A stretch of DNA of 64,000 nucleotides from Variovorax sp. CF079 (lineage in GTDB: Bacteria > Pseudomonadota > Gammaproteobacteria > Burkholderiales > Burkholderiaceae_C): assembly GCF_900101545.1 (NCBI RefSeq), contig NZ_FMZU01000005.1, forward strand, positions 62,001-126,000. The letters are read 5' to 3'. The position numbers and the translations under genes were made by a program. This document shows positions 18,842 to 55,996 of this stretch, in pieces; positions within the stretch are counted from its first letter, which is position 1, and the number at the start of each line of letters is the position of its first letter. The notes under the pieces were generated by a model. The model was given only the letters and a program-made list of their open reading frames with translations, ran no database searches and was not told the origin of the DNA.

Positions 18842-18852
18842 GGAAAAGAAAG

Positions 18853-19257: not shown

Positions 19258-19266
19258 CCGCCACGC

Positions 19267-20070: not shown

Positions 20071-20079
20071 AAGCCGACC

Positions 20080-30237: not shown

Positions 30238-30248
30238 GAGGCTACGCG

Positions 30249-37101: not shown

Positions 37102-38286
37102 TCAGAGCAGCCCGCGCCCCGCCAGGTTGCGCATCAGCGCACCGATGCCGAAGGACCAGCGCGCTGCCTGGTCCGAATGCACGACGCGGTTCTCCAGCGC
37201 GCCGAGCTCGGGCGCCGAGATGGTCACACGATCGCCGACCACATGGGTGAAGCCCTGGCCCGGACCGTGGCGGTCCTGCGTGGGCGCGAACATGGTTCCG
37301 AGGAAGAGCACCAGACCGTCGGGGTAGGCATGGTGCGGGCCGATCGCCTGCGACACGATGTCCAGCGGATCGCGGCTGATCAGCGAGAGCGAGCTTTCGC
37401 CTTCGAGCACGAAGCCTTCAGGGCCCGCGACGCGCAGCGCCACCGTGATGCGGCGCACCTCGTCGATGCCGAAGTGGGCATCGAAGAGGCGGATGAAGGG
37501 GCCGATCGCGCACGAAGCGTTGTTGTCCTTGGCCTTGCCGAGCAGCAGCGCGCTGCGGCCTTCGAAGTCGCGCAGGTTGACGTCGTTGCCCAAGGCGGCG
37601 CCCAGCGTCTGGCCGCGGCTGTTGATCGCAAGCACCACCTCGGGCTCGGGGTTGTTCCAGACCGAACCCGAATGGATGCCGATGTCGGCGCCGGTGCCCA
37701 CCGAGGCCAGCACCGGCGCCTTGGTGAAGATCTCGGCATCGGGGCCGATGCCGACCTCGAGGTACTGCGACCAGGCGCCCTGCGCGATCAGCACCTCCTT
37801 GACCTGCGCCGACTGCGGCGAGCCGGGCACGATGCCCGCGAGGTTGTCGCCGAGCACGCCGCCGAGCGCGGCGCGGATGGCTTCGGCCTTGGACGCATCG
37901 CCGCGCGACTGCTCCTCGATCACGCGCTCCAGCAGGCTGGCGACGAAGGTCACGCCGCTGGCCTTGACGGCCTGCAGATCGCAGGGCGCGAGCAGCCAGG
38001 GCTGGCCGGGATCGCGCCCGGCCTCGTCGCTGTTGGCCAGCACCGCGTCGAGCGCGGCGATGCGGGGCGTGATGTTGTCGCGCAGGCCCTGCTGCACGGC
38101 ACCCACGGCATCGTCGAGCTCGAGCAAGTGGCTCGCGGTGGGCGCGATGCGCGTGAGGTCGTGCAGGCCGCCTTCGTGCACGGCCACCAGCGTCGGCCCG
38201 AGCCCGGGCTGCCAGAGGCGTCCGATCAGGGTGGCGCGCTCGGCATCGCGAGGCAGGCTGGTGGCGGGCGAGAGGATCGGGGGCAT
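37102..38286 (-). CDS. Fumarylacetoacetate hydrolase family protein
   Basis: 394 aa. A long N-terminal domain (GRLWQPGLGPTLVAVHEGG) precedes the FAH catalytic fold with metal-binding NPEPEVVLAINSRGQ, GNDVNLRDFEGRSALLLGKAKD and the late GLVLFLGTMFAP. This 390-aa subgroup is found in sugar-acid and aromatic catabolic loci and hydrates or hydrolyses 2-oxo-type acids. It lies 63 bp downstream of the NicB-like gene on the same strand, so it may act in the same catabolic route. Confidence 0.82.
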   Translation of the reverse strand: MPPILSPATSLPRDAERATLIGRLWQPGLGPTLVAVHEGGLHDLTRIAPTASHLLELDDAVGAVQQGLRDNITPRIAALDAVLANSDEAGRDPGQPWLLAPCDLQAVKASGVTFVASLLERVIEEQSRGDASKAEAIRAALGGVLGDNLAGIVPGSPQSAQVKEVLIAQGAWSQYLEVGIGPDAEIFTKAPVLASVGTGADIGIHSGSVWNNPEPEVVLAINSRGQTLGAALGNDVNLRDFEGRSALLLGKAKDNNASCAIGPFIRLFDAHFGIDEVRRITVALRVAGPEGFVLEGESSLSLISRDPLDIVSQAIGPHHAYPDGLVLFLGTMFAPTQDRHGPGQGFTHVVGDRVTISAPELGALENRVVHSDQAARWSFGIGALMRNLAGRGLL

Positions 38287-38349
38287 GCAAGGTCTCCAGA
38301 ATGAACGGGCCGATGAGCCGGCCTCTGCATGGGCGATCGTACGGGACTG

Positions 38350-41300
38350 TCAGCGTGCCGTGTGGGCCTGCCCCGCCGCGCGCACGCGCGCGACGCTCTG
38401 CGGCAGGTCTTTCCAGGCTGTAGCCTGCGGCGCGAAGCGCGCGCGCATGTAGCCGGCCAGCTCGGCGATCTGCGCATCGTCGAGCGCTTCGCCGAAGGCC
38501 GGCATGAAGCCGATCTCACGCGAGGCCGGCTCGCGCACGCCGTCGAGGATGGTGCGCAGCAGGTTGTCCGGCCGCTCGCTTGTGAGATTGCTGTTGAGCG
38601 CGAGCGGCGTGTTCACGCCCAGCAGGGTCGGCCCGTTGCCGTCGTGGTGGCAGGCGGCGCAGGCGCCGTCGAACATGCGCTGGGCGGAGCCTAGCAACTG
38701 GCCCTGGCCGGCGGCCGCGGCGGCGACCGCGCGCTGCGCCTGCGCGCTCGCTTCGGCATCGCTGGCGGCCGGATTGAAGGAAGCGAGGTAAGTGGCCATC
38801 GCGCGGATGTCGTCATCAGGCACTGCCGCCAACTCGCGCACCACCTCGGCCATTGGGCCACCAGCCATGCCGTGCCGCGGGCTGTGGCCGTTGCGCAGGT
38901 AGCGATAGAGCGCCTCGGCGTTCCAGGGCACAGCCGCCTTCGAGAGGCTGGTGAGCGCCGGCGCTTCCCAGCCCTCGACCATCGCGCCCGAAAGAAAAGC
39001 GCTGCCGCCCTGCTCCGCGCCGAGCGCATTGCGCGGCGTGTGGCAGGCGCCGCAGTGGCCCAGGCCGTTGACGAGGTAGGCGCCGCGGTTCCATTCGGCG
39101 CTTTGCTGCGACGCCGGCTGCATTGGCGCCGGATCGTGGAAGAGCGCGTTCCAGCCTGCCATCAGCGGCCGCAGGCCGAAGGGGAACTTGAGCCCCGCCT
39201 CCGGCGTGGGCGCGCGCACCGCGGGCAGCGACATGAAGTAGGCATAGAGCGCCTGCAGGTCGTCGTCGCTGGTCTTCGCGAAGGCGGTGTAGGGGAAGGC
39301 CGGGTAGAGATGGTGGCCGTCGCGCGAGATGCCCTCGCGCATCGCGCGCTGGAAGGCGCTGAAGGACCAGCGGCCCAGGCCGGTCTCGGCATCAGGCGTG
39401 AGGTTGGTGGTGTAGATGGTGCCGAAGGGCGTCTCCATCGCACGGCCGCCGGCGTTGGGCGTTCCGCCCGGCGCGGTGTGGCAGACGGCGCAGTCGCCGA
39501 TGGCGGCGAGCGTGCGGCCGCGTTCGATGGTGGATTGGCTGTAGACGGGGGCGCTGAGGGTGACGGGGGCGATCGTCGAGCGCCAGCCCATGAGGCCGGC
39601 GATGACGCCGAGGCCGCCGATGACGAGGGCGATCGCACTGGCTGCCTTGCTCCTTCCCCCTCTGGGGGAAGGCTGGGATGGGGGCACGACGACGCCACCA
39701 TCGAACGCTGGGTTGCCCCCACCCCTACCCTCCCCCAAAGGGGGAGGGAGTGAAGACGGGTTCAGCGCAGCACGCACCACTTCCGGCGTGAACGGCGGCG
39801 CCCTGAACCGCACCCCCGTCGCATCGAAGATCGCATTTGCGATCGCCGCCGTGCCAGGCACCGAGGACGACTCGCCCGCTCCGAGCGGCGGCTCGCCGGG
39901 CCGCTGCATGTGCATGACCTCGATCACCGGCACGTCGCGGAAATTGACGATCGGGTAGCTGCCCCATTCGCGGCTCGCGACCACGCCCGGGTTGGGCGCA
40001 CTCTGCGGCACGAACTGCACGCGCTCCTTCAACGCGCGGCTCGTGGTCTGGATCACGTTGCCGTGGATCTGGTGTTCGACCCCGGCCGGATTGACCATCA
40101 GCCCCGCGTCGTGCCCCACCACCACGCGGCGCACGTGCACCTCGCCGGTCTTGCGGTTGACTTCGACATCGGCCACCCAGGCCGACCATGCCGCGCCGAA
40201 GCCTGGCCACTTGCTGTGCACGTAGCGCGCGTAGGCGAAGCCTTGCCCGAAGAGCACGTCACCACCGGGTCCGAGGCCGCCGTCGGCATCCTCCTGCGGC
40301 CCGGTGCGCATGCGCCAGCCGGCCTTCTGCGCGGTCTCGCGCACCAGCTCGGCCGCGCGCGGATCGTTCAGGTGGCGCAGGCGGAACGCGACCGGGTCGA
40401 CGCCGGCCGCGGTGGCCAGTTCGTCGACGTAGGACTCGTGCGCGAAGGAGCTCGGCAGCGCCGACACGCCGCGCAGCCACGAGGCGCGCACGATCGGCGC
40501 CATGTCGTTGACCTTGACGCGCAGGTTGCCGTACGCATAGGGCGGGCGCGCGGTGCGGTCGCCCATCTCGAAGGCCTGGGCCGCAGGCTCGATGGTGCGG
40601 GTGAGCAAGAGCGCCAGCGTGGGCGCGCCGTTCGACGGGTACGAGGTCTCGAAGTCGTAAGCCGCAACGCCGCCTTCGGCATCGAGCCCGCCCTTCACCT
40701 GCATCAGCTGCGCGGCACCCTTGGGCTCCCACGCATGCTCCTGCTCGCGCGTGAGCTGCACCCGCACCGGCACGCCGGCCGCGCGCGCGAGCAGCGCGGC
40801 ATCGGCCGCGACGTCGTCGGCGCCGTTGCGCCCATAGCAGCCGGCCGCCTCCATGCGCACCACATCGACCGCGACATCGTCCACGCCCATGAGCTTGGCC
40901 AGATCCGCGCGCAGCACATGCGGGTTCTGCGAGCCGGCCCACACGCGCAGTTGCACATCGCCGCCTTCGCCTTCGGGTTGCCAATGCGCGAGCGCGCACG
41001 AGGGGCCGATCGATGCGTGCATCTGGTAGGGCCAGACGTAGGTGCGCGGCATCGACTCGGCCGCATGGGCGAGCGCGCCCTCGACATCACCTTCGTCGAC
41101 CAGCAGGCGCTGCGTGGCGGGGTTGGCGCGGATCGCGCCTTCGAGATCGTCGAGCGAAGGCAGGCCGGGCCAGCGCTTCCAGATCACGCGCAGTTCGCGC
41201 AGCGCCTGCTCGGCATGCTCCTCGCGCTCGGCGACGATGCCGACGAAGTCGCGGATCACCACCACGGCGCGGATGCCGGGGATGTGGGCGATCGAGGATT

Positions 41301-42135
41301 GGTCCACCGATTCGAGCGTGTTGCCGATGTAGTCGCCGTGGTCCGCGCCCGCATAGGGCGGGCGCACGACGCGGCCGTGCAGCATGCCGGGCGCGCGCAT
41401 GTCGTGCACGAACACCAACTCGCCCGCGAGCTTGGCCGGGATGTCGACGCGCGCCACCGGGCTGCCGACGATGCGGTAGTCCTTCGGATCCTTGAGGCGG
41501 GCGCCGCCGTCGAGCTGGAGCACGGTGCGCACGCCCGCCACCAGCTCCCCGAAGCCGACGCTGAACGCGGGGTCGTCGCCCGCATGGATGCGGCCCTCGC
41601 GCACCGCGAGCAGTGAGGGCTGCACGCCGAAGCGTTCCGAAGCCTGCGCGAGAAGCCAGGCGCGTGCCTGCGCCGCCGCGAGCCGCAAGGGTGCGGCATG
41701 GATCTGCAGCGAGGCGCTGGCGATGGTCGCGCCCTGGTTCGGCGCGCGGGCGGTGTCGCCGAGCACCATGCGGATCTGCGCCAGCGGCACATCGAGCTCT
41801 TCGGCGACGATCTGCGACAGCGCGGTCTGGATGCCGGTGCCGAGATCGACATGGCCGTTGAGCGCGGTCACGCTGCCGTCGTCCCACAGCGCAAGCAGGA
41901 TCTCGGGCCCTTCCGCGGGATTGCCCGACACCGTGGCCGGCTGGCCGTTGGCGACCGGCGGCGCGGGTGGCGTCTCGCGCACCACGACGAGCACGCCCTC
42001 GGCATGGAGGAAGTCGCTGCGGTTGCGCGGCAGCTCGGCGCGAAATGGTGCCCCCAGGCTCGGCACTCTCGTGTCCTCGCCGCCCCCCGAGGGGGCTACC
42101 GCGCCTTGGGGCGGCCCGGCGGCACGGTTGCTCAC
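38350..42135 (-). CDS. NicB-like nicotinate hydroxylase: molybdopterin subunit fused to three cytochrome c domains
   Basis: 1261 aa from GTG at 42135, overlapping the small subunit stop (GTGA). Residues about 40-780 are a xanthine-dehydrogenase-type molybdopterin domain (HVDLGTGIQTALSQIVAEEL, GCYGRNGADD region, GAGESSVPGTAAIANA). A linker containing an in-frame dispersed repeat leads to a membrane helix (AIALVIGGLGVIAGLMGW) and three haem sites: Cys882 (CAVCH), Cys1028 (CGACH) and Cys1159 (CAACH). This is the layout of NicB of Pseudomonas putida (1187 aa). Expected topology is N-in, C-out, passing electrons to periplasmic cytochromes. The first ~35 residues derive from another repeat copy and may not be native. 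Substrate is inferred from context; related enzymes oxidise aldehydes or isoquinoline. Confidence 0.8.
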   Translation of the reverse strand: MSNRAAGPPQGAVAPSGGGEDTRVPSLGAPFRAELPRNRSDFLHAEGVLVVVRETPPAPPVANGQPATVSGNPAEGPEILLALWDDGSVTALNGHVDLGTGIQTALSQIVAEELDVPLAQIRMVLGDTARAPNQGATIASASLQIHAAPLRLAAAQARAWLLAQASERFGVQPSLLAVREGRIHAGDDPAFSVGFGELVAGVRTVLQLDGGARLKDPKDYRIVGSPVARVDIPAKLAGELVFVHDMRAPGMLHGRVVRPPYAGADHGDYIGNTLESVDQSSIAHIPGIRAVVVIRDFVGIVAEREEHAEQALRELRVIWKRWPGLPSLDDLEGAIRANPATQRLLVDEGDVEGALAHAAESMPRTYVWPYQMHASIGPSCALAHWQPEGEGGDVQLRVWAGSQNPHVLRADLAKLMGVDDVAVDVVRMEAAGCYGRNGADDVAADAALLARAAGVPVRVQLTREQEHAWEPKGAAQLMQVKGGLDAEGGVAAYDFETSYPSNGAPTLALLLTRTIEPAAQAFEMGDRTARPPYAYGNLRVKVNDMAPIVRASWLRGVSALPSSFAHESYVDELATAAGVDPVAFRLRHLNDPRAAELVRETAQKAGWRMRTGPQEDADGGLGPGGDVLFGQGFAYARYVHSKWPGFGAAWSAWVADVEVNRKTGEVHVRRVVVGHDAGLMVNPAGVEHQIHGNVIQTTSRALKERVQFVPQSAPNPGVVASREWGSYPIVNFRDVPVIEVMHMQRPGEPPLGAGESSSVPGTAAIANAIFDATGVRFRAPPFTPEVVRAALNPSSLPPPLGEGRGGGNPAFDGGVVVPPSQPSPRGGRSKAASAIALVIGGLGVIAGLMGWRSTIAPVTLSAPVYSQSTIERGRTLAAIGDCAVCHTAPGGTPNAGGRAMETPFGTIYTTNLTPDAETGLGRWSFSAFQRAMREGISRDGHHLYPAFPYTAFAKTSDDDLQALYAYFMSLPAVRAPTPEAGLKFPFGLRPLMAGWNALFHDPAPMQPASQQSAEWNRGAYLVNGLGHCGACHTPRNALGAEQGGSAFLSGAMVEGWEAPALTSLSKAAVPWNAEALYRYLRNGHSPRHGMAGGPMAEVVRELAAVPDDDIRAMATYLASFNPAASDAEASAQAQRAVAAAAAGQGQLLGSAQRMFDGACAACHHDGNGPTLLGVNTPLALNSNLTSERPDNLLRTILDGVREPASREIGFMPAFGEALDDAQIAELAGYMRARFAPQATAWKDLPQSVARVRAAGQAHTAR
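39652..39748. repeat. Double-hairpin repeat inserted in frame within the NicB-like gene
   Basis: Two stem-loops: CCTTCCCCC-TCT-GGGGGAAGG (39652-39672) and CCCTCCCCC-AAA-GGGGGAGGG (39728-39748), 55 bp apart. Translated on the minus strand they give LPPPLGEGRGGG and PPSQPSPRGGR, peptide strings seen wherever this widespread proteobacterial intergenic repeat is read as protein. Here no stop is introduced, so the sequence becomes the linker between the molybdopterin and cytochrome parts. Confidence 0.8.
42083..42123. repeat. GC-rich dispersed repeat element, copy 2 (within 5' end of the NicB-like gene)
   Basis: Contains the same CCCCCGAGGGGG block and CGCCTTGGGGCGGCCCGGCG string, in the same order, as copy 1 at 8081-8124; the spacer differs. 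It encodes, on the minus strand, residues AAGPPQGAVAPSGGG of the predicted NicB-like N-terminus, immediately after the GTG start. Confidence 0.75.
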
Positions 42136-42632
42136 GAGTCGGCGTCCTTTGCCACCATCAGCTGCGCCGCACGCTGCACCGCCGCCATGATCTCGACATG
42201 CGTGCCGCAACGGCACAGGTTGCCCGAGAGCTCGTTCCTGATCTGCGCATCGCTCGGATGCGGCTCGCGCGCGAGCAGCGCCGCCGCCTGCATCACCATG
42301 CCGTTCAAGCAGTAGCCGCATTGCGCGGCCTGCGCGTCCTCGAAACCTTGCTGGACCGGATGCCATTGCTCCCGCGAGCCCAGCCCTTCAAGCGTGGTGA
42401 TGGCCCGTCCCGCAACCCCATGCGCCGGAATCACGCAGGCCCGCGCCGCCACGCCATCGACCCACACGGTGCAGGCGCCGCACTGGCCCAGGCCGCAGCC
42501 GTACTTGGGACCGTTCAGGCCCAGGTCGTTGCGCAGCACATGCAGGAGCGATGCCTCGCGCGGCACCGCGAGCGCGTGCGCGCGCCCGTTGACCTGCAGG
42601 GCGAAAGTCTCAGCGCTGGAGGCGTCCGTCAC
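42132..42632 (-). CDS. NicA-like [2Fe-2S] subunit of nicotinate hydroxylase
   Basis: 166 aa from GTG at 42632, overlapping the upstream binding-protein gene by 23 bp. The plant-type ferredoxin domain has GCGLGQCGACTVWVDG; the second 2Fe-2S domain has QCGYCLNGMVMQA and GNLCRCGTHVEI. This is the standard small subunit of the xanthine dehydrogenase/NicA class (NicA of P. putida is 157 aa). It delivers electrons from the molybdenum site to the cytochromes of the large subunit. No signal peptide, so it is cytoplasmic. Confidence 0.88.
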   Translation of the reverse strand: MTDASSAETFALQVNGRAHALAVPREASLLHVLRNDLGLNGPKYGCGLGQCGACTVWVDGVAARACVIPAHGVAGRAITTLEGLGSREQWHPVQQGFEDAQAAQCGYCLNGMVMQAAALLAREPHPSDAQIRNELSGNLCRCGTHVEIMAAVQRAAQLMVAKDADS

Positions 42633-43764
42633 GTGTGTACATCTCCAGATCGACGAAGGTCGAGCCGTTGTGGTTCTTCGGCCCGTAGGCCACCGGGAAC
42701 TCGCCGATGCGCGTGTCGCCCAGACTCTCGAGGGCCGTGACGAAGCTCTCGCGCGTGAGGTGGCGGCCGGCGCGCTTGAGCCCTTCGACGAACACGCGCG
42801 CGGCGATATAGCCCTCGAGCGCGGTGTAGCTGTCGATCTTCTCGCCGAACTCCGCGCGGTCGCGCCGGTAGTCGGCCACGATCGGCACGCGCACCAACTG
42901 CGGCGGCGGCACGATGCTGGCGGTGACCAGGCCTTCGAGCTTGCCGCCCAGGCGCTGTGCCGAACCGGCCGCGTCGGTGATGCCGACCGAGAGCGTGTAG
43001 AGCGGCGCAGCCGCACCACCGGCGCGGTAGTCGCGGATGAAGACCTCGCTCATGCGCCCGGCCATGATCATCACCACCGCGCCGGGCTTCGCCTTGGCCA
43101 GGCTCTCGCCGATGTCCTTGGCGTCGGTCGCCGCAATGGCCATCGGCAGCGCCTGCACCACCTTGACCTTGTATTCGGCCGCGAGCTGCTCGCAGGTCGC
43201 GAGGTTCGACTTGCCGAAGGCGCTGTCCTGGAACACCACGGCGATGTTGTGGATGCCGATGGTCGACAGGTGGCTGATGATCTTGCGCAGCTCCAGGTCG
43301 TAGCCCGCGCGCACATGGAACAGGTTGCGATTGAGCTTGGTGCGGAACGAGGTGGTGCCCACCAGCGGCGCGAACATCGGCACGCCGGCCTTGTCGGCCA
43401 GCGGCATGGCCGCCACCAGGTTGCCGGTGGCGACAAAACCCATCAGCGCGAACACCTTGTCCTCGTCGATCAGCTTGGCCGTGTTGACTGCCGTGCGCTG
43501 GGGCTCGTAGGCATCGTCGTAAGAGAGCAGCTCGATCTTGCGGCCGTTGACGCCACCGCCCTTGTTCACGCGGTCGAAGTAGAGCTTGATGCCGGCACGG
43601 TAGTCGTTGCCGAAATCCTGCGCCACGCCGCTGAAGACGGCCGATTGGCCGATGCGGATGCTGGTGTCGGTGACGCCGTTTTCGGCGGCGTGCGCGAAGG
43701 TCGAGAAGAAGGCGAGCGCGGCAGCGCAGCACGCCGCCGCGGCGCGTTGGGAGATGCGGGCCAT
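42610..43764 (-). CDS. Branched-chain-amino-acid-type ABC substrate-binding protein
   Basis: 384 aa. Signal peptide 1-26 (CCAAALAFFSTFAHAAENG), then a type I periplasmic binding fold: SIRIGQSAVFSGVAQDFGND, NGRKIELLSYDDAYEPQRT and AVVFQDSAFGKSNL. It belongs to the HAAT family, whose members often bind aromatic acids. It lies 3 bp after the nicotinamidase gene and upstream of nicA, inside the cluster; nicotinate, or a pathway acid, is a plausible ligand. Confidence 0.87.
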   Translation of the reverse strand: MARISQRAAAACCAAALAFFSTFAHAAENGVTDTSIRIGQSAVFSGVAQDFGNDYRAGIKLYFDRVNKGGGVNGRKIELLSYDDAYEPQRTAVNTAKLIDEDKVFALMGFVATGNLVAAMPLADKAGVPMFAPLVGTTSFRTKLNRNLFHVRAGYDLELRKIISHLSTIGIHNIAVVFQDSAFGKSNLATCEQLAAEYKVKVVQALPMAIAATDAKDIGESLAKAKPGAVVMIMAGRMSEVFIRDYRAGGAAAPLYTLSVGITDAAGSAQRLGGKLEGLVTASIVPPPQLVRVPIVADYRRDRAEFGEKIDSYTALEGYIAARVFVEGLKRAGRHLTRESFVTALESLGDTRIGEFPVAYGPKNHNGSTFVDLEMYTRDGRLQR

Positions 43765-43767
43765 CGC

Positions 43768-44493
43768 TCAGGCCACCACTTCGATGTCGGTGGACTGGAT
43801 GCGCTTGACGCCCTTGGCCGCCATCTGCTTCCAGGCCGCAGCCAGCGACCCGTTGAGGTCGATGGCGCGCGTCGCGTCCTCGATCACGTAGGCCTCGAAG
43901 CCGTGCTTGCGCGCGTCGAGCGCGGTCCAGGCGACGCAGAAGTCGGTGGCCAGGCCGCTCACGAACACCGTCTTGATGCCGCGCTGCTTGAGGTAGCCGG
44001 CCAGGCCGGTCGCGGTCTTGCGGTCGGCCTCCTCGAACGCCGAGTAGCTGTCGACGCCCTTGTGGAAGCCCTTGCGGATGATCACCTGCGCGGTCGGCAG
44101 CTTGAGGTCCTTGTGCAGCGCCGCGTCGTCCGTGCCCTGCACGCAGTGGTCGGGCCACAGCACCTGGTTGCCGTAGGCCAGCTTGATGCTGCTGAAGGGT
44201 TTCTGGCCCGGATGCGCGCTCGCGAAGGAGGCGTGGCCCTGCGTGTGCCAGTCCTGCGTGACGACGATGTTCTCGAAGGCCGTGGAGAGCTTGTTGATCA
44301 CCGGCACCACCTCGGCCCCGCCCTTGACCGGCAGCGTCCCGCCGTCGACGAAGCAGTTCTGCACATCGACCACGATCAGAGCCGCGTTGGCCGCCGGCTT
44401 GATCTTCGCCGCAGCGATGAGCGGCGCCGAAAGTCCCGCGAGCCCCAGGGCTGCGGCGGACTGAAGAAAGGTTCTGCGGTGCGTGTTGTGCAT
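43768..44493 (-). CDS. Tat-exported nicotinamidase (PncA-like isochorismatase fold)
   Basis: 241 aa. A twin-arginine signal (HRRTFLQSAAALGLAGLSAP) precedes the hydrolase. The catalytic triad is Asp43 (VVDVQNCF), Lys141 (IRKGF) and Cys186 (LATDFCVAW); metal ligands Asp81, His83 and His87 are in DWHTQGH. These are exactly the PncA signature residues. It deamidates nicotinamide to nicotinate. Cytoplasmic PncA serves NAD salvage; the export signal and neighbouring transporter and hydroxylase genes suggest catabolism of external nicotinamide. Confidence 0.88.
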   Translation of the reverse strand: MHNTHRRTFLQSAAALGLAGLSAPLIAAAKIKPAANAALIVVDVQNCFVDGGTLPVKGGAEVVPVINKLSTAFENIVVTQDWHTQGHASFASAHPGQKPFSSIKLAYGNQVLWPDHCVQGTDDAALHKDLKLPTAQVIIRKGFHKGVDSYSAFEEADRKTATGLAGYLKQRGIKTVFVSGLATDFCVAWTALDARKHGFEAYVIEDATRAIDLNGSLAAAWKQMAAKGVKRIQSTDIEVVA

Positions 44494-44527
44494 GGTGTGC
44501 GCTCCTCGGGTTGAAATAATCCTGTGA

Positions 44528-47972: not shown

Positions 47973-47987
47973 GGTGGACGTGCTCGA

Positions 47988-49193
47988 TCAATCCGCGGTG
48001 CGCGATTTCTTCACGTCGGCGGCGGAAGGCTGGAACTTGGCGCCGTCGAAGTACTGGTAGTCGACCATCACGCCCTTGCCGTTGTCGTTCTTCGTCTTGC
48101 CGACGAAGGCGCCCATGGTCGATTGGTGGTCTTCGGGGCGGTAGAGGATCTTGCCGAAGGGCGTGTCCACCTGCAGGCCCTCGAAGGCGGCGACCAGCTT
48201 CGGCGTTTCGGTGCTCTTGGCCTTGGCGGCGCCGGCGGCGACCGACTTGATCATGGTGTAGCCCACCACCGAACCGAGGCGCGGATAGTCCTTGTACTTG
48301 TTGTGGTACGCGAGGAAGAAGGCCTTGTGCTCGGGCGTCTGGATGCCGTACCAGGGATAGCCGGTGACGATCCAGCCGTTCGGCGCCTCGTCCTTCAGCG
48401 GATCGAGGTACTCGGGTTCACCGGTCAGCACGCTCACCACTTCGCGGCCCTTGAACAGGCCGCGCGTGTTGCCTTCGCGCACGAACTTCGACAGGTCGGC
48501 GCCGAACAACACGTTGAAGATCGCATCGGGCTTGGCATCGGCCAGCGCCTGCACCACGCTGCCGGCATCGACCTTGCCGAGCGGCGGCGCCTGCTCGGCG
48601 ACGAACTCCACATCGGGTTGCGCGGCCTTCAGCAGCTGCTTGAACGCGGCCACCGCCGACTGGCCGTACTCGTAGTTGGGGTAGACGATCGCCCAGCGCT
48701 TCTTCTTGAGCTTGACCGCTTCCGGCACCAGCATCGCGGCCTGCATGTAGGTGCCCGGGCGCAGGCGGAAGGTGTACTGGTTGCCGCCCTGCCAGGTCAT
48801 CTTGTCGGTGAGCGGCTCGCCGGCCAGGAAGAAGAATTTTTTCTGCTTCGCGAAGTCGGCGACGGCCAGCCCGGTGTTGGACAGGAAGGTGCCGGTCAGC
48901 ACGTCGATCTTCTCGCGCGAGATCAGCTCTTCGGCCACGCGCACCGCGTCGCCGGGGTTGGCGTTGTCGTCGCGCGTGATGAGCTCGATCTTCTTGCCGT
49001 TGACGCCGCCCTTGGCGTTGATCTCCTCGACCGCGAGCTCCATGCCCTTCTTGTAGGGCTCGAGGAAGGCGGCCTGGGCCTTGTAGCTGTTGACCTCGCC
49101 GATCTTGATCACGCCCTGCGCATGCGCGGGGACGAGTGCAGTGGCGAGCGTGGCGACGGCGGCCGCACTGAAGACATGACGCAGGGGGTTCAT
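47988..49193 (-). CDS. LivK-type ABC substrate-binding protein
   Basis: 401 aa. Signal peptide 1-25 (VATLATALVPAHAQG), then VIKIGEVNSYKAQAAFLEP, NGKKIELITRDDNANPG and TGTFLSNTGLAVADFA. This is the cognate receptor of the adjacent LivHM/LivG/LivF, with stop 15 bp before the permease start. It differs clearly from the second receptor at 42610-43764, so the transporter may serve two ligands. Confidence 0.9.
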   Translation of the reverse strand: MNPLRHVFSAAAVATLATALVPAHAQGVIKIGEVNSYKAQAAFLEPYKKGMELAVEEINAKGGVNGKKIELITRDDNANPGDAVRVAEELISREKIDVLTGTFLSNTGLAVADFAKQKKFFFLAGEPLTDKMTWQGGNQYTFRLRPGTYMQAAMLVPEAVKLKKKRWAIVYPNYEYGQSAVAAFKQLLKAAQPDVEFVAEQAPPLGKVDAGSVVQALADAKPDAIFNVLFGADLSKFVREGNTRGLFKGREVVSVLTGEPEYLDPLKDEAPNGWIVTGYPWYGIQTPEHKAFFLAYHNKYKDYPRLGSVVGYTMIKSVAAGAAKAKSTETPKLVAAFEGLQVDTPFGKILYRPEDHQSTMGAFVGKTKNDNGKGVMVDYQYFDGAKFQPSAADVKKSRTAD

Positions 49194-49247
49194 TGAAAGC
49201 TCCTTGGGGTCGAACGGAAGAGGAAATGGATGAGTGGCAAGAGCGGC

Positions 49248-49832
49248 TCAGCGGAGGCCGTCTTCGCCCTTGATCTCGGAAACCTGCAGGCCGCCGATGC
49301 GCGGCAGCGGACGGCCGCTGTCGGTGACCGCCACCGCGACGACGATCTCGTTGGCGCGCGGCGCATCCGACACGCGGGCCTCGACGGCGTCGAAGTGGCT
49401 GCGCACGAAGGCCGCGTCCTTGTGGCCCAGCGGCACGTCGATGGCGGTGCCGAGCGTGCCGCGCTTCTTGGCCGAGGGCACCAGCGCCGCGCCCTTCTCG
49501 ACCGCCACGCGCAGCGGCGCGCCGAGCTTGGGATGCAGGATGGCCGCGGCATGCTCGAGTTCGCCGGACTCGCCGACGATCGCAGCCTTGCCGTAGCTCT
49601 GCACGCGGCCGGGCTCGATGCCCAGCGCGGCGACGGCCTTCTGGCCGAGCAGCGCACCCAGCTCTTCGCCGATGGCGATCAGTTCGTCCAGCGATTCGCT
49701 GTAGCGGCCTGCATAGGGGTTCTCGATCACCGCGATGGCGACGGCGCGGCGCGTGGGCGGCTCGATGCTTTGGCCCATTTCCTTGCGGGTTTCGTCGACC
49801 TGCACGACGAGCTTGCGGATGTTGGCGCTCAT
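49248..49832 (-). CDS. Amino acid synthesis family protein (PF06684), copy 2
   Basis: 194 aa from ATG at 49832. Shared family blocks: ENPYAGRYSESLDELIAIGEELG, SYGKAAIVGESGELEHAAAI split, and VPLGHKDAAFVRSHFDAVEAR. Its catalytic role is unknown in any organism. It is a paralogue of the next gene (49876-50517), and both lie downstream of the 6-hydroxynicotinate reductase-like gene. Being retained as a pair suggests they form a heteromer or act on successive intermediates. Confidence 0.82.
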   Translation of the reverse strand: MSANIRKLVVQVDETRKEMGQSIEPPTRRAVAIAVIENPYAGRYSESLDELIAIGEELGALLGQKAVAALGIEPGRVQSYGKAAIVGESGELEHAAAILHPKLGAPLRVAVEKGAALVPSAKKRGTLGTAIDVPLGHKDAAFVRSHFDAVEARVSDAPRANEIVVAVAVTDSGRPLPRIGGLQVSEIKGEDGLR

Positions 49833-49875
49833 GGTTCTCTTTCCTTGTCTTGTCTCTGGATCAGGGATGGTGCGC

Positions 49876-50517
49876 TCAGCGCAAGCCGTCCCACTTGGCG
49901 ATGTTTTCTGCGCGCAGGCCGCCGACGCGCTCATGCACGCGGTAGCCGGTGCTCATCGCGAGGATGAAGACGATCTCGTCGGACAGCGGCGCACCAGGCA
50001 CGCGCACTTCGATCGCGTCGAACTGCCCGCGCACGTAGCTGGCATTGATGTTGGTGAGCGGCACATCGAGCGCTGCGCCGGGCGGCCCCACCTTCTTGGT
50101 GGAGGGCACGATCGAGAGCGCATTGCCGGGCTGCCCGGTCTTCTCCTCGGCCTTGCCCTGTCGATAGGCGTCGCGGTCGCCCTTCCAGCCGAGCAGCTCG
50201 CGCATCGCATAGCCGCCTGGCACATGCCACAGCGCGCCGTGCTCCAGCTCGCCGGCGGCGCCGACGATCGCGCCCTTTCCGTAGGTGGCGATCTGCTCGA
50301 GCGGCACGTCCATCGCGGCATGCAGGCGGTGCGCCATGTCGACGCCGACCGGATCCAGCAGGCTCATCATCGGCAGGATGTCGGGCTCGTAGCGGCCCGC
50401 GAAGGGATTGGTCAGCACCGCGCTGATGGCGCCGCGCACCAGCGGCGTTGCGGCGCGTGGACCGAACTCGTGGTGGATGTGCTCGACATGGGTGAAAACG
50501 CGACGTATATCGATCAT
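49876..50517 (-). CDS. Amino acid synthesis family protein (PF06684), copy 1
   Basis: 213 aa. Starts MIDIRRVFTHVEHIHHEFG; the conserved parts TNPFAGRYEPDILPMM, IATYGKGAIVGAAGELEHGA and LTNINASYVRGQFDAIEVRVPG align with the neighbouring paralogue. It is 21 bp downstream of the UPF0280 gene. A 25-residue insert (around PGGYAMRELLGWKGD) distinguishes it from its partner. Confidence 0.82.
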   Translation of the reverse strand: MIDIRRVFTHVEHIHHEFGPRAATPLVRGAISAVLTNPFAGRYEPDILPMMSLLDPVGVDMAHRLHAAMDVPLEQIATYGKGAIVGAAGELEHGALWHVPGGYAMRELLGWKGDRDAYRQGKAEEKTGQPGNALSIVPSTKKVGPPGAALDVPLTNINASYVRGQFDAIEVRVPGAPLSDEIVFILAMSTGYRVHERVGGLRAENIAKWDGLR

Positions 50518-50538
50518 GAAAAGAAGCCCTGCTTTTCG

Positions 50539-51459
50539 TTAAGCAAATACTGAACCAACTGCAGCGGCACGGGGCGGCCCCGCAATGGCCGAGACACCGG
50601 ACGCATGCGAGCTTAAGGGCTCGACCATCGCCCATTGCCCCTGACAAACCAGCACGGCCGACCACACCAGCCCCGCGCGCTGCAAGGCCGCGGCGCGGGC
50701 CGCGCCCGCATCCAGTGCGCGGCGCACCTGCGCTGGCGCCAGCGGCTCCACGTCGGTCGTCACCGGGATGTCGCCCAGATCGCTGTCGTCCTTGCAGGCG
50801 CTGGCCGGCAGGCGATGGATGCCGGGGTCAACGACATCGACCGCGTTGGCGATCACGGTGGCCGCGGCATCGGCTTCGGCCGCCGTGGCTGCGAGCACGG
50901 TCACGCTGTCGGCGATGCCGAGCGAGAAGCTGCGGCCGCGCCAGCCGCTGGTGGCGACGCCGCGCACCGGCATCTCGGCGCCGATCTCGAACTGGCCGTC
51001 GGTCGCGAGCGGGCCGCTGTCACGCAGATCGAAGCGCGCGAGATCGGCGAACAGGCCGACGCGCGCCGAATGACCGGGCGCCAGATGCAGCGCGATATCG
51101 CCGCCGTTGTTGATCCACGCGCGCTCGATGCCGGAGCGCTGGTAGCAGGCGATGAGTTCCTGCGCCACGGCACCGGCCACGGCGGCCATCGGCGTGATGA
51201 AGCCGGCACTGAACGGGGCACAGGCCTTCCACATGCGTTGCGCGATGGGGCCTTGCAGCGCGCATTCGGTGCCCACGGGCTGGCGCAGCAGCGGCAGCTC
51301 GGTCACCAGCTCTTCGAGCACGGCGCCGAAGCGCCGCCACGCGAGTTCGTGCGCGACGGCGACCTCGACCGCGTCACCGTGCGCCTCGGCCACGATGTCG
51401 ATCGGGCCGTGGTTGAGATGCCAGCGGCCGCCGTCGAGCGCGGTGCGTTGGGCGGTCAT
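50539..51459 (-). CDS. UPF0280 family protein (ApbE-like fold)
   Basis: 306 aa. Motifs SAGFITPMAAVAGAVAQEL, AWINNGGDIALHLAPG and VATSGWRGRSFSLGIADSVTV are the UPF0280 signature. The family is structurally related to ApbE flavin transferases, which attach FMN covalently to target proteins. It starts 15 bp after the reductase-like stop, so it may modify or mature that enzyme; this is inference. Confidence 0.83.
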   Translation of the reverse strand: MTAQRTALDGGRWHLNHGPIDIVAEAHGDAVEVAVAHELAWRRFGAVLEELVTELPLLRQPVGTECALQGPIAQRMWKACAPFSAGFITPMAAVAGAVAQELIACYQRSGIERAWINNGGDIALHLAPGHSARVGLFADLARFDLRDSGPLATDGQFEIGAEMPVRGVATSGWRGRSFSLGIADSVTVLAATAAEADAAATVIANAVDVVDPGIHRLPASACKDDSDLGDIPVTTDVEPLAPAQVRRALDAGAARAAALQRAGLVWSAVLVCQGQWAMVEPLSSHASGVSAIAGPPRAAAVGSVFA

Positions 51460-51474
51460 GGGAATGAAGTCCGT

Positions 51475-53082
51475 TCAGCCCAGCATGGGCGGTTGACCGA
51501 GCGGCCAGGGATTCGCATCGTCCATGCGAAGCCATTGGCGCGCCAGCGGCGCACCGTCGTTCTGCCAAGCGCCGCGCGCCAGCGCTTGTTCGAGCGAGAA
51601 CACATGCTCCATATGCCCACCCAGCGCCGCATAGTCCTCGCGCCGCATGCTGAACTCGATGGGCGCCACGATCGCGGGCGTGGGCACGGTGCCGAAGCTG
51701 TTGTCGGGCATGCGCAGCACGTCCACCATCACCGTGATGCCGCCGCCGGGCCACACATAGGCCGGCGCGCCGCCGCAGGTCACGTTGACCAGCGCGCGCT
51801 TGATGGCGCGCGTGAGCAGCACCGGGTTTTCGGTGACGCCGGCGCGCAAGGACCCGCCGGCGCCGCCGAGGAAGAGCACGCTGCACAGCGAGGGCTCGCA
51901 GTTCTCGCCGATGCGCTCGACGATGCGGCGCACTTCGGCGGGCATCTCCTGCTCGACCGGCTGCAGTTGATCGTCGAGTACGTACCACTGCGCATGTTCG
52001 CCGGTGGTGGAGGTCATCAGGAGACGCAGGCCCGGCTTGGCCACGCCCTCTTCCCAGCCCTCGATGATCGACAGCGGATCGTCGATGTCGGTGCCGCCCC
52101 AGCCGTTGCCGGGGTTCGCCACCTGGAAGTAGCGCCCGGGCGTGGACTTGCGCCCGCGCATCTGGATGCCCGAGGGCGGCATGTCGAGGCAACGCCCGGC
52201 CTGGTGCTCGGTGAGCACGCCGGTGATGTGGTCGTCGACCACCACCACCTCGTCGGCCTGGCTGAAGAGCTGGCGCGCGAAGATGCCGACGGCCGCCGAG
52301 CCGCAGCCCACGCGCATGCGCTTTTCCTCCACGCCGTTGACGATGGGGGCCTTGCCGGCCTGGATCACCATGCTGGCGCCGCCGTCGATCACGCATTCGA
52401 CCGCCTTCTTGTTGCCCAGCAGCTGCATCAGCTCGGCCGTCATGCGGCCCTCCTTCTTGCTGCCGCCGGTGAGATGGTGCACGCCGCCGAGTGAGAGCAT
52501 CTGCGAGCCGTACTCGGCCGTGGTGACGTGGCCTACCACCTCGCCGCGGTAGCGCACGTTGGCCTGCTCGGCGCCGAGGAAGCGGTCGGTGTCGATCTTC
52601 ACCTTGAAGCTGCAGTAGCTGAAGATGCCCTCGGTCACGACCGTGACCATGTCGACGCCCTGGGCTTTGGAAGCCACGATGAAGGGTGCGGGCTTGTAGT
52701 CGGGGTAGGTGGTTGAGGAGCCCACGCCGGTGACAAAGACCTCGTCGGCATGCAGGAGATCGCCTTGCCAGTCCGGGTCCGCTTCCGCGGGCGCCTGTTC
52801 GGCCGCCGGCCGCGCAAAAGGCACCAGCGCGGGCGATTCGCTCGCGAGTTCGCGCCGCAGCAGCAGCACCGGATCGACGCGCACCAGCACGCCCTCGCGG
52901 TTGGCGTAGCGGTCACAGGCGCCGGTGCGCCCCTCGGAGATCTGGCACAGCACCGGACAGGCGTTGCACTCGACCTTGCTGGTGCTCATGCGCTCGTTGC
53001 GCAGGGGCGAGCGGCCGCCGGCCTCGGGCAATACCGGCATGTCCATGCCGGGCAATCCGTCTGTCTTGGTGTGTTCGGTCAT
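51475..53082 (-). CDS. 6-hydroxynicotinate reductase-like iron-sulfur protein
   Basis: 535 aa. The N-terminal Fe-S motif has Cys39, Cys42, Cys46 and Cys56 (ECNACPVLCQISEGRTGACD). Downstream blocks include GVGSSTTYPDYKPAPFIVA, FSYCSFKVKIDTDRFLG, SLGGVHHLTGGSKKEGRMT and VIDGGASMVIQAGKAP. This matches the 6-hydroxynicotinate reductase of Eubacterium barkeri and similar proteins in proteobacteria; there it reduces 6-hydroxynicotinate to 1,4,5,6-tetrahydro-6-oxonicotinate using reduced ferredoxin. It heads the minus-strand operon and diverges from fpr with two inverted repeats between. Confidence 0.78.
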   Translation of the reverse strand: MTEHTKTDGLPGMDMPVLPEAGGRSPLRNERMSTSKVECNACPVLCQISEGRTGACDRYANREGVLVRVDPVLLLRRELASESPALVPFARPAAEQAPAEADPDWQGDLLHADEVFVTGVGSSTTYPDYKPAPFIVASKAQGVDMVTVVTEGIFSYCSFKVKIDTDRFLGAEQANVRYRGEVVGHVTTAEYGSQMLSLGGVHHLTGGSKKEGRMTAELMQLLGNKKAVECVIDGGASMVIQAGKAPIVNGVEEKRMRVGCGSAAVGIFARQLFSQADEVVVVDDHITGVLTEHQAGRCLDMPPSGIQMRGRKSTPGRYFQVANPGNGWGGTDIDDPLSIIEGWEEGVAKPGLRLLMTSTTGEHAQWYVLDDQLQPVEQEMPAEVRRIVERIGENCEPSLCSVLFLGGAGGSLRAGVTENPVLLTRAIKRALVNVTCGGAPAYVWPGGGITVMVDVLRMPDNSFGTVPTPAIVAPIEFSMRREDYAALGGHMEHVFSLEQALARGAWQNDGAPLARQWLRMDDANPWPLGQPPMLG

Positions 53083-53162
53083 CGGGGGCTACTCTTGAAA
53101 TCGGGGCCGATCGGATCTGCAACAACCGTGCCGGAAACCGGCTTGTATTGGACTCACGGTTT

Positions 53163-53180
53163 GTGTAGTATTCCCTACAC
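53163..53180. promoter_or_regulatory. Inverted repeat 1 in the hnr/fpr divergent promoter
   Basis: GTGTAG-N6-CTACAC, perfect 6-bp arms. It shares the half-site TGTAG/CTACA with inverted repeat 2, 35 bp to the right (centre to centre). It lies in a 224-bp AT-richer intergenic region between divergent starts (53082 and 53307) next to a TetR gene, so it is a candidate TetR operator. Confidence 0.6.
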
Positions 53181-53196
53181 TTTCATGTTGCAATCA

Positions 53197-53217
53197 CTAC
53201 ATTGAAGGCCAATGTAG
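53197..53217. promoter_or_regulatory. Inverted repeat 2 in the hnr/fpr divergent promoter
   Basis: CTACATTG-N5-CAATGTAG, perfect 8-bp arms, 21 bp overall. The outer bases repeat the CTACA/TGTAG half-site of inverted repeat 1. Symmetry and length suit a TetR-family dimer. Confidence 0.65.
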
Positions 53218-53306
53218 CAAACAGAATCGATGCTTGCAATGGTGTTTTCGCGGCGTCGCCGACAATCGGCAGGTTCCCTTTTCATTCATAACCATCCCTG
53301 ATTCCT

Positions 53307-54080
53307 ATGAGTGCATTCAGCGAAGAACGCGTGTTGAGCGTCCACCACTGGACCGACCGCCTGTTCACCTTCACCACCACGCGCGACCCGGCGCTGCGCT
53401 TTTCCAACGGCCACTTCACGATGATCGGCCTCAAGGTCAACAACAAGCCCTTGTTGCGCGCCTATAGCATCGTGAGCCCCAACTACGAGGAGCACCTGGA
53501 GTTCCTCAGCATCAAGGTCGAGGAAGGCCCGCTCACCTCCAGGCTGCAGCACGTCCAGGTGGGCGACACCATCATCGTGGGCCGCAAGCCCACCGGCACG
53601 CTCTTGATCGACTACACGCTGCCGGGCAAGCGCCTCTATCTGTTCGGCACCGGCACGGGTCTTGCACCGTTCATGAGCATCATCCGCGACCCGGACACCT
53701 ACGAGAAGTTCGAGCAGATCATCCTGGTGCACGGCGTGCGCCAGATCGACGAGCTGGCCTACCACGACCTCGTGACCGACCACCTGCCCAAGCACGAGTT
53801 TTTGGGCGAGATGATCGAGAAGCAACTGCTCTACTACCCGACCGTGACGCGCGAGGAGTTCCGCAACATGGGCCGCATCACCGAGCTGATCGAGACCAAC
53901 AAGCTGACCGACGACCTGGGTCTGCCGCCGCTCAATGCCGCGGAAGATCGCGTGATGCTCTGCGGCAGCCCGGGCCTCCTGGTGGACTTGAAGCACATCC
54001 TGGAAGCGCGCGGGTTCAAGGAAGGCAACACGTCGACCCCCGGCGATTTCGTCGTAGAACGCGCCTTCGCCGAGAAGTAA
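53307..54080 (+). CDS. fpr: Ferredoxin-NADP reductase
   Basis: 257 aa. FAD-binding motif RAYSIVSPNYEEHLEF and NADP-binding GTGTGLAPFMSIIRDP, with the C-terminal aromatic-type end VVERAFAEK typical of bacterial Fpr. It exchanges electrons between NADPH and ferredoxin or flavodoxin. Divergent placement with the 6-hydroxynicotinate reductase-like gene suggests that it feeds ferredoxin reduction for that enzyme. The TetR gene starts immediately after its stop (TAAATG). Confidence 0.93.
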   Translation: MSAFSEERVLSVHHWTDRLFTFTTTRDPALRFSNGHFTMIGLKVNNKPLLRAYSIVSPNYEEHLEFLSIKVEEGPLTSRLQHVQVGDTIIVGRKPTGTLLIDYTLPGKRLYLFGTGTGLAPFMSIIRDPDTYEKFEQIILVHGVRQIDELAYHDLVTDHLPKHEFLGEMIEKQLLYYPTVTREEFRNMGRITELIETNKLTDDLGLPPLNAAEDRVMLCGSPGLLVDLKHILEARGFKEGNTSTPGDFVVERAFAEK

Positions 54081-54851
54081 ATGGCCAACGGCCGCAGCCT
54101 GCCCAAGCCGGCCACGCGCCGCACCGGCGTGCGCGAGGCCGCCGCGCAGGCCACGCGCGAGAGCATCCTGCGCGCGGCCACCAAGGTGTTCGCGAAGTAC
54201 GGCTACGACGGCGGCAGCGTCGAGAAGATCTCGAAGGCCGCGAAGTCGTACGACCGCATGATCTACTACTACTTCGGCAGCAAGGAAGGCCTCTTCATCG
54301 CGGTGCTCGAGGGCATCTATCGGCGCATGGACGAGGCCGAGGCCGCGATCGACCTCGACGCATCGCGGCCGGTCGAGGCGCTGACGGCGGTGATCCGCTT
54401 CGTGCTCGGCTACTACCGCAAGAACCCCGAGTTCGTCACGCTGCTCAACACCGAGAACCTGCACAAGGGCCGGCACGTCGCGAAGTCGCTGCGCGCGCGC
54501 GAATACTCGTCGCGGGCGATCGCGATCATCCAGAAGCTGCTCGAAAGCGGCGTCGCGCAGGGGCTGTTCCGCGACGCCGTGGCGGCGCGCGATCTCTACC
54601 TGCTGATCGCCTCCACCGGCTACTTCTACACATCGAACCGCCACACGCTGACCGCCTTCCTCGGCGAGCCGCTGGAGACGCCGGAAGCCGTGGCGCACTG
54701 GGAAGACTTCGTGATCGAAACCGTGCTGCGCACGGTCGACGCGGGCGCTTCCGACGAAGAAACCACCTCAACCTCACCCCACGAAGAGGCAAAGAAATGG
54801 CAGAAGTCGCAACCGGCGCAAAGTCGGGCAAGGTCGTCATCCGGAACATAG
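54081..54851 (+). CDS. TetR-family transcriptional regulator
   Basis: 256 aa. N-terminal HTH of about 50 residues: ILRAATKVFAKYGYDGGSVEKI then MIYYYFGSKEGLFIAVLE. Ligand domain C-terminal. It is abutted to fpr and overlaps the enamidase gene by 55 bp in a different frame; the last ~18 residues are Ser/Arg-rich and lie in that overlap, so they may be incidental. It probably binds the repeats at 53163-53217 and senses a pathway intermediate. Confidence 0.85.
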   Translation: MANGRSLPKPATRRTGVREAAAQATRESILRAATKVFAKYGYDGGSVEKISKAAKSYDRMIYYYFGSKEGLFIAVLEGIYRRMDEAEAAIDLDASRPVEALTAVIRFVLGYYRKNPEFVTLLNTENLHKGRHVAKSLRAREYSSRAIAIIQKLLESGVAQGLFRDAVAARDLYLLIASTGYFYTSNRHTLTAFLGEPLETPEAVAHWEDFVIETVLRTVDAGASDEETTSTSPHEEAKKWQKSQPAQSRARSSSGT

Positions 54852-55996
54852 GTCTGTTGCTCTCGGGCGACATCGACAAGCCCATCCTGGACGCCGACAC
54901 CCTGGTCGTGAACGACGGGCTGATCGTCGCGCTCGGCAAGGAAAAGGACTGCGATCTTGAAGGCGCGCAGACCGTGATCGACGCCAAGAAGACCTGCGTC
55001 GCCCCCGGCCTGATCGACAGCCACGTGCACCCGGTGTTCGGCGACTGGACGCCGCGCCAGAGCCAGCTTGGCTGGATCGATTCGACGATGAACGGCGGCG
55101 TGACCACGATGATCTCGGCCGGCGAAGTGCACCTGCCGGGCCGGCCCAAGGACATCGTGGGCGTGAAGGCCCTGGCCATCACCGCGCAGCGCGCCTTCGA
55201 CAACTTCCGCCCCGGCGGCGTCAAGGTGCTGGCGGGCGCGCCGGTGCTCGAGAAGGGCATGGTCGAGAGCGACTTCAAGGAAATGGCCGAGGCCGGCGTG
55301 GGCCTGCTCGGCGAAGTGGGCCTGGGCTCGGTGAAGGCCGGCTACGAGGCCAAGGAGATGGTGGCCTGGGCGCGCAAGTACGGCATCCAGAGCACCATCC
55401 ACACCGGCGGCCCCTCGATCCCCGGCTCGGGCCTGATCGACAAGGACGTGGTGCTCGAAGCCGATGCCGACATCATCGGCCACATCAACGGCGGCCACAC
55501 CTCGCTGCCCGAGGCGCATGTGTGCGAGCTGTGCGAGAAGTCTTCGCGCGCGATCGAGATCGTGCACAACGGCAACGAGCGCGTGGCCATCGCGGCTGCC
55601 AAGGCGGCGTTGGACCTGAAGTGCCCGCACCGCGTGATCCTCGGCACCGACGGGCCGGCCGGCTCGGGCGTGCAGCCGCTGGGCATCCTGCGCATGGTGG
55701 CGATGCTGTCCTCGATCGCGAACATCCCGGCCGAGCTGGTGTTCTGCTTCGCGACCGGCAACACGGCACGCATCCGCAAGCTCAATTGCGGGCTGATCGA
55801 GGTCGGCCGCGCGGCCGACTTCGTCTTCATGGACCGCGCGCAGCACACGGCCGGCAGGACGCTGCTCGAAAGCGTGCAGCTCGGCGACATCCCGGGCGTC
55901 GGCATGGTGATGATCGACGGCATCGTGCGCTGCGGCCGCAGCCGCAACACGCCGCCGGCGACCGAGATTCCGGTGGTGGTGTCGGGGGTGCACTGA
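54797..55996 (+). CDS. Enamidase-like amidohydrolase
   Basis: 399 aa. Metal ligands His76/His78 in LIDSHVHPVFG, later His in STIHTGG and GHINGGH, and Asp in LGTDGPAGSG; a binuclear metal site is expected. The sequence resembles the enamidase of E. barkeri, which opens 1,4,5,6-tetrahydro-6-oxonicotinate to 2-formylglutarate and ammonia. It is preceded by GAGG within the TetR coding region. Together with the reductase-like protein it supplies the two ring-breaking steps after nicotinate hydroxylation. Confidence 0.82.
   Translation: MAEVATGAKSGKVVIRNIGLLLSGDIDKPILDADTLVVNDGLIVALGKEKDCDLEGAQTVIDAKKTCVAPGLIDSHVHPVFGDWTPRQSQLGWIDSTMNGGVTTMISAGEVHLPGRPKDIVGVKALAITAQRAFDNFRPGGVKVLAGAPVLEKGMVESDFKEMAEAGVGLLGEVGLGSVKAGYEAKEMVAWARKYGIQSTIHTGGPSIPGSGLIDKDVVLEADADIIGHINGGHTSLPEAHVCELCEKSSRAIEIVHNGNERVAIAAAKAALDLKCPHRVILGTDGPAGSGVQPLGILRMVAMLSSIANIPAELVFCFATGNTARIRKLNCGLIEVGRAADFVFMDRAQHTAGRTLLESVQLGDIPGVGMVMIDGIVRCGRSRNTPPATEIPVVVSGVH

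Follow-up and report, generated by a model that had tools for sequence, protein, structure and literature searches.

Reduction of 6-hydroxynicotinate to 1,4,5,6-tetrahydro-6-oxonicotinate (THON) was discovered in Eubacterium barkeri and has been reported in the aerobe Azorhizobium caulinodans (PMC3511419, with Kitts, 1989/1992 and Alhapel, 2006 used as cited there). The accessible part of PMC3511419 describes a cluster for this route in Azorhizobium, Bradyrhizobium, Rhodopseudomonas and the Bradyrhizobiaceae strain SG-6C, the route ending via glutarate, and gives an identity of 42% between the 6-hydroxynicotinate reductase (Hnr) of SG-6C and that of E. barkeri. In the portion of PMC9304392 available, Azorhizobium and E. 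barkeri are named for the THON route, which is termed the anaerobic pathway there. A related cluster was investigated here in Variovorax sp. CF079, in a stretch of 64,000 nucleotides (the window; contig NZ_FMZU01000005.1, positions 62,001 to 126,000), of which it occupies positions 37102–55996. As in A. caulinodans ORS571 and SG-6C, genes for the first three steps, an ATP-binding cassette (ABC) transporter and two conserved unknown proteins lie in one cluster of an aerobe; the window cluster differs in being betaproteobacterial and in including nicotinamidase and TetR genes, as far as a comparison by legend and text of PMC3511419, rather than gene by gene, allows. The hydroxylation, Hnr and enamidase (Ena) steps are shared with the nicotinate fermentation of E. 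barkeri, whose enamidase is a close relative of the window protein, whereas the window hydroxylase is of the cytochrome-linked NicAB type. The oxidative nic cluster of Pseudomonas putida also has a NicAB-type hydroxylase, but the window has Hnr and Ena, and NicC, NicX, NicD and NicF were not recognised among the scanned cluster proteins.

The cluster, delimited with a codon-use gene caller and with Pfam and NCBIfam scans, comprises a 13-gene minus-strand run and a divergent plus-strand run, fpr–tetR–ena. The tightly packed minus-strand run reads hnr, UPF0280, two PF06684 genes, a receptor, LivHM, LivG, LivF, nicotinamidase, a second receptor, nicA, nicB and an FAH-family gene, which ends at the cluster edge, 37102. 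The original prediction, made from the letters alone, had listed a Tat-type nicotinamidase, a NicAB-like hydroxylase, a Liv-type transporter with two receptors, an Hnr-like protein, Fpr and an enamidase-like hydrolase, and every one of these parts was found; the UPF0280, PF06684, tetR and FAH-family genes come in addition to that list. The annotated Comamonadaceae plasmid CP099606 shows this gene order and orientation too, but lacks the nicotinamidase and the second receptor. At least 585 stretches encoding Hnr were found in a scan of GTDB contigs, and a set of 100 hnr loci was compared (80 named GTDB contigs and 20 further regions, mostly from Burkholderiales, whose organisms may overlap), in 96 of which the gene caller recovered hnr. 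The cluster order was retained in the majority of these loci, and the cluster was also retained in 11 stretches from the same genus, some of which end early. Since order and orientation are shared with CP099606 and with most of the 100 loci, the arrangement is not due to chance.

We assign the cluster to nicotinamide/nicotinate catabolism of the aerobic THON type, with the steps proposed below, at a probability of about 0.87. This assignment is supported by the match of Ena to the solved enamidase 2vun, the names of the relatives of Hnr, the nicotinamidase, the NicA and NicB domains, the conserved gene order and the occurrence of Ena in Hnr-positive genomes; gcdH beside a CoA-transferase gene, the ferredoxin gene seen in some hnr loci, the published description of the route and the candidate operators also speak for it. 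The ena gene (54797–55996, plus strand) encodes a predicted enamidase of the 2vun family; it matched 2vun, which we take to be the E. barkeri enzyme, with E=2.4e-107 over residues 11–390. The motifs DSHVH (74), GEVG (172), HTGG (202), GHINGG (228) and GTDGP (283), presumably metal or catalytic sites, have matching patterns in 75, 69, 74, 74 and 60 of 75 sequences, respectively, the window protein counted. The hnr gene (51475–53082, minus strand) encodes a predicted 6-hydroxynicotinate reductase, an assignment made through the names of close relatives rather than by direct comparison with E. barkeri Hnr: the nearest relatives of the product are Variovorax proteins that bear this name, with identities of up to 93%, a Variovorax contig encodes a protein 95% identical to it, and it belongs to the family that NCBI names 6-hydroxynicotinate reductase, with plasmid copies 55–86% identical. 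No solved relative was found by sequence. Four N-terminal cysteines (CxxCx3Cx9C; C39, C42, C46 and C56) were invariant in 46 sequences.

The nicotinamidase gene (43768–44493, minus strand) exceeded the cut-off of NF008623 (178.6 against 174) and matched the nicotinamidase 2wt9 (E=2.5e-87), and its product carries the Tat-like motif RRTFLQ at the N-terminus. The NicA and NicB domains point to the molybdenum nicotinate hydroxylase of the THON pathway. The nicA gene (42132–42632, minus strand) encodes the 2Fe-2S small subunit (Fer2_2, 97.5 bits; Fer2, 29.6 bits). The large subunit and, in the same polypeptide, a cytochrome c part with three haem-type CxxCH motifs are encoded by nicB (38350–42135, minus strand; MoCoBD_1, MoCoBD_2 and Cytochrom_C), the start of which is approximate and lies near 42066–42135, the choice of the gene caller being 42066; a 1338 amino acid open reading frame (ORF) in the mechanical list (38350–42366) consists of NicB with an out-of-frame head. 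The nearest solved structure was 8gy3 chain A for the cytochrome part and 8gy3 chain C, followed by nicotinate dehydrogenase 3hrd, for the molybdenum part. The hydroxylase type varied among the 100 hnr loci: nicB could be seen in 65, and 11 had an FAD/2Fe-2S/Mo type.

In the proposed pathway, an exported nicotinamidase, as its family and signal suggest, would convert nicotinamide to nicotinate, and nicotinate would be imported by the Liv-type ABC system. NicAB, judged by its family, would then form 6-hydroxynicotinate and pass electrons through its cytochrome c part to the respiratory chain. Hnr, probably prepared by the UPF0280 protein, perhaps by flavin attachment, would reduce 6-hydroxynicotinate to THON with electrons from NADPH via Fpr and ferredoxin, and Ena, by homology to the E. 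barkeri enamidase, would open the ring and release ammonia to give 2-formylglutarate. This would continue via glutarate, as published for Azorhizobium, and both gene runs would probably be controlled by the TetR protein through two palindromes. A glutaryl-CoA dehydrogenase gene, gcdH (3d6b, E=1e-227), adjoins a CoA-transferase III gene (PF02515) at about 199–202 kb of the same contig, some 80 kb from the cluster (about 99–118 kb); the pair fits the glutarate branch and is not specific to it.

Several points weigh against this assignment. Because gcdH has functions in other catabolic pathways too, finding it lends the assignment little weight. No gene was assigned as a 2-formylglutarate decarboxylase or a glutarate-semialdehyde dehydrogenase, the latter not having been sought genome-wide; the window cluster holds no ferredoxin gene; and two Ena-like proteins (42–43% identity) were found in genomes without a listed Hnr (G238 and G289). 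An unlikely alternative is that the main substrate is a related pyridine, be it 6-chloronicotinate, trigonelline or a different pyridine carboxylate, and that nicotinate is only a side substrate. The identity of a substrate cannot be read from sequence, Rieske oxygenase-like genes, named by eye, stand beside some hnr clusters (L106, L188 and L201), and SG-6C is described in PMC3511419 as channelling 6-chloronicotinate into the THON route; the same description, however, has SG-6C degrading nicotinate itself as sole carbon source, and a nicotinamidase gene lies inside the window run, with a nicotinamidase-like gene in view in 38 of the 100 loci. Less probable still is that nicotinate is degraded by the oxidative NicC/NicX route, the present cluster being silent or auxiliary. 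NicAB-type hydroxylases do also serve the P. putida route, but neither NicC nor NicX was recognised among the scanned cluster proteins (a genome-wide search was not made), and the retention of the cluster in the same-genus stretches argues against a silent copy.

The observation made in the original prediction is confirmed, and the pathway that it proposed, a reductive Hnr/enamidase route in an aerobic betaproteobacterium, is supported by the Ena match, the names of the Hnr relatives and the nicotinamidase. Its view of the cluster as an unusual hybrid is not supported, as the accessible part of PMC3511419 already describes the aerobic route and its cluster in Azorhizobium and Bradyrhizobiaceae. 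The later branch of E. barkeri (hydroxymethylglutarate dehydrogenase, methyleneglutarate mutase and dimethylmaleate hydratase) was not recognised among the cluster genes, no genome-wide search being made, and the expectation that 2-formylglutarate leaves by another way agrees with the published exit via glutarate (PMC3511419, as far as accessible). The window cluster is a betaproteobacterial instance of the published route, and what is new are the comparative points: the association of UPF0280 with hnr, the alternation of Ena with HyuA, and two candidate operators upstream of hnr.

The UPF0280 gene (50539–51459, minus strand; NF003322, 397.6 against a cut-off of 290) encodes a remote relative of ApbE. 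UPF0280 followed hnr on the same strand in 99 of the 100 loci: it was the next gene in 95 of the 96 loci with a called hnr (median gap 11 bases, largest 546) and was detected by tblastn in L036, L081, L089 and L091, whilst in the remaining locus, L068, the contig ends 145 bases past hnr. Comparison of UPF0280 and ApbE profiles with hhalign gave a match of 94.8% (E=5.5e-8), compared with E≥0.12 for all eight control pairs of unrelated families. This profile similarity to the ApbE superfamily appears to cover the catalytic half: UPF0280 aligns to the C-terminal half of ApbE flavin transferases, with GGD and ADAxxT in common, but the alignment spans just 94 columns. E. barkeri Hnr holds a covalent flavin. 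Taken together, the constant linkage to hnr, the ApbE profile match and the covalent flavin of E. barkeri Hnr suggest that UPF0280 may flavinylate Hnr. That it acts on another step, with Hnr requiring no dedicated flavin transferase, is a serious alternative only a little short of an even chance. The shortness of the alignment favours this alternative, as does the lack of an obvious ApbE-type attachment motif in Hnr, none holding in all rows of an alignment of 13 sequences inspected by eye, where the window protein and one other have GSAA in place of the conserved GSAT. It accords less well with the position of UPF0280 after hnr, within 546 bases, irrespective of the type of hydroxylase, transporter and ring-opening gene present. 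No tested activity of a UPF0280 protein came up in a literature search.

The distribution of Hnr, Ena and a HyuA clade of the hydantoinase/oxoprolinase family was determined in 398 Pseudomonadota genomes; the three counts were treated as referring to the same genomes, and the handles agree among those listed. The HyuA clade was defined by at least 62% identity to L123:11001–13061, which carries Hydantoinase_A domains and begins a HyuA/HyuB stretch (L123:11001–14803), with E≤1e-230 and no more than two candidates scored in any genome; the query locus had been selected for its proximity to hnr, and the threshold of 62% was chosen once a gap down to 46% was apparent. Hnr was found in 32 of the genomes (and in 26 plasmid records), Ena (at least 61% identity) in 18 and the HyuA clade in 16. 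All 18 and all 16 also had Hnr, and the HyuA clade was not found in any of the 366 sampled genomes without Hnr. Ena and HyuA jointly covered all 32 Hnr genomes, two of which (G123 and G194) had both. With G411 added, the 33 Hnr genomes comprised 16 with Ena only, 15 with HyuA only (searched for Ena down to 1e-20), two with both and none with neither. Fisher values for this distribution ignore relatedness. On an Hnr tree of the 32 genomes the three ring-opening states need five changes, and an independent-pairs test of the swap yielded only two informative pairs, both opposite (p=0.5), which is too few.

Of 17 genomes, nine had HyuA within 10 kb of hnr, and eight had it at a different place. 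HyuB adjoined HyuA in eight of 11 loci examined (L112, L115–L118, L123 and L196–L200), L117 being cut at HyuA; L112 and L115 have no HyuB beside HyuA, which weighs against a replacement of the enamidase by HyuA(B). An fpr gene adjoined in four of the 11 (L118, L196, L199 and L200). Lactam hydrolysis is known chemistry of the oxoprolinase family, so an action of HyuA on THON would fit. In the literature searched, hydantoinase/oxoprolinase HyuA/HyuB was not linked to nicotinate; in the parts of that literature available, the terms 6-hydroxynicotin and oxoprolinase co-occur in work on fungal nicotine degradation and sugarcane leaves. HyuA(B) may be a non-orthologous replacement of the enamidase. 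A wider model, in which the route is modular around a fixed Hnr and UPF0280 core, with UPF0280 a dedicated ApbE-type flavin transferase and THON opened by either enamidase or the unrelated HyuA/HyuB, is put forward tentatively and would on balance have to be called doubtful, its odds having been lowered slightly because HyuA stands without adjacent HyuB in L112 and L115.

Two further arrangements were seen. On a Pleomorphomonas plasmid (AP017627.1, L190), two genes annotated as acetophenone carboxylase subunits (15020–18855) follow Hnr, a UPF0280-sized and a PF06684-sized gene and, judged by size and place, may be HyuA/HyuB. In two Hnr genomes (L191:5956–9643 and L192:5776–9523), ena, two PF06684 genes, a MarR-like gene and a gene for an isochorismatase-fold-like hydrolase, named by eye, form a cluster away from hnr.

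The two PF06684 (DUF1185/AA_synth) genes of the window lie at 49248–49832 (protein 1, the type that accompanies Ena; 241 bits) and 49876–50517 (protein 2; 208 bits; 3byq, E=3.2e-42), both on the minus strand. PF06684 occurred in 32 of the 33 Hnr genomes and also in other gene surroundings. Its candidacy as an essential partner of Hnr was weakened by G139, which has Hnr and HyuA with no PF06684 match anywhere. Among 74 loci in which ena could be seen, gene calling placed the protein 1 type in 72 and tblastn in L058, L044 ending before it; this type was found in one (L123) of 11 loci of HyuA-only genomes (L112, L114–L119, L121, L123, L130 and L188). In G123 and G194, ena adjoins two PF06684 genes on a contig other than that of hnr. 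An action downstream of ring opening would be plausible. According to the accessible part of PMC7913881, HcdD, a member of PF06684, is similar to TgnF, a stimulator of TgnE in trigonelline catabolism, and efforts to observe a comparable stimulation by HcdD were unsuccessful. A third PF06684 gene of the window genome (G000:C66:2684–3262, L183) lies near an FAH-family-like gene, a receptor and a VOC-like gene, named by eye and from weak matches to proteins of the window, perhaps in another ring-cleavage cluster.

The plus-strand run begins with fpr (53307–54080), a ferredoxin-NADP reductase homologue that scored 142.6 bits (E=1.2e-41) with NF008178, under the model cut-off of 390, and whose CP099606 copy is so annotated. 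Twelve of the 100 hnr loci contain a ferredoxin gene, in most cases adjoining fpr or hnr (e.g. L058:9410–9739; Fer4, DUF3470), and its product is possibly the electron carrier to Hnr there. The TetR-family regulator gene (54081–54851, plus strand; TetR_N, TetR_C_29) follows fpr. The gap of 224 bases between hnr and fpr (53083–53306) holds two palindromes, GTGTAG-N6-CTACAC (53163–53180) and CTACATTG-N5-CAATGTAG (53197–53217), which have TGTAG/CTACA half-sites in common; each occurs just once in the window, against an expectation of 0.02. In a survey of 96 related loci (about 1.83 Mb), many of them close relatives and so not independent, 23 had the first palindrome in the 450 bases preceding hnr, and no copy turned up at any other place; 34 had a looser form of the second before hnr, with a single further copy in the whole set. 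One or both preceded hnr in 44. Both palindromes are good candidate operators for the TetR protein encoded nearby.

The remaining transport genes are on the minus strand and, by domain scan, include the components of a Liv-type system with two periplasmic receptors, at 47988–49193 and 42610–43764 (Peripla_BP_6, 240 and 204 bits, respectively). A fused LivH-LivM permease (46059–47972) has two BPD_transp_2 stretches (247 bits). The LivG-like ATPase (45259–46062; ABC_tran and BCA_ABC_TP_C), delimited by gene call, lies inside a longer ORF, 45259–47400, and the LivF-like ATPase (ABC_tran) is at 44528–45262.

Downstream of nicB, the FAH-superfamily gene (37102–38286, minus strand; PF01557, 26.5 bits) has as its nearest solved match the FAH family protein 9kkt (E=3.5e-130) and next 2-keto-3-deoxy-D-arabinonate dehydratase 2q18 (E=5.8e-15). 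It was found downstream of nicB in nine of 10 same-genus loci with room for it (L193, L204–L206, L208, L209, L211, L212 and L214), with an extra call of about 300 amino acids in between in L204 and L209; L207 was the miss, and L210 and L213 end too early. It did not adjoin nicB in the two other genomes checked (G207 and G322); its spread is seen only in part, since nicB is where the majority of the remaining loci stop. The gene is probably an add-on of the Variovorax lineage. The FAH superfamily includes decarboxylases; a role as the 2-formylglutarate decarboxylase was considered and not adopted, the gene standing next to nicB in the Variovorax group only and its second solved match being a sugar-acid dehydratase.

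Elsewhere in the window, a homoprotocatechuate (4-hydroxyphenylacetate) meta-cleavage cluster was identified at 13683–20889, with the HpaG C-part, HpaE, HpaD and HpaH above the NCBIfam cut-offs and the HpaG N-part and HpaI below theirs. Genes for the glycolate oxidase subunits GlcF and GlcE, each above its NCBIfam cut-off, lie at 29008–31346.

The Variovorax cluster offers an entry to the gene questions of the THON route, namely the roles of UPF0280 and PF06684, the identity of the 2-formylglutarate decarboxylase and the possibility of HyuA(B) as a second ring opener. If HyuA(B) were such an enzyme, this would bear on the annotation of genes near Hnr as acetophenone carboxylase subunits.

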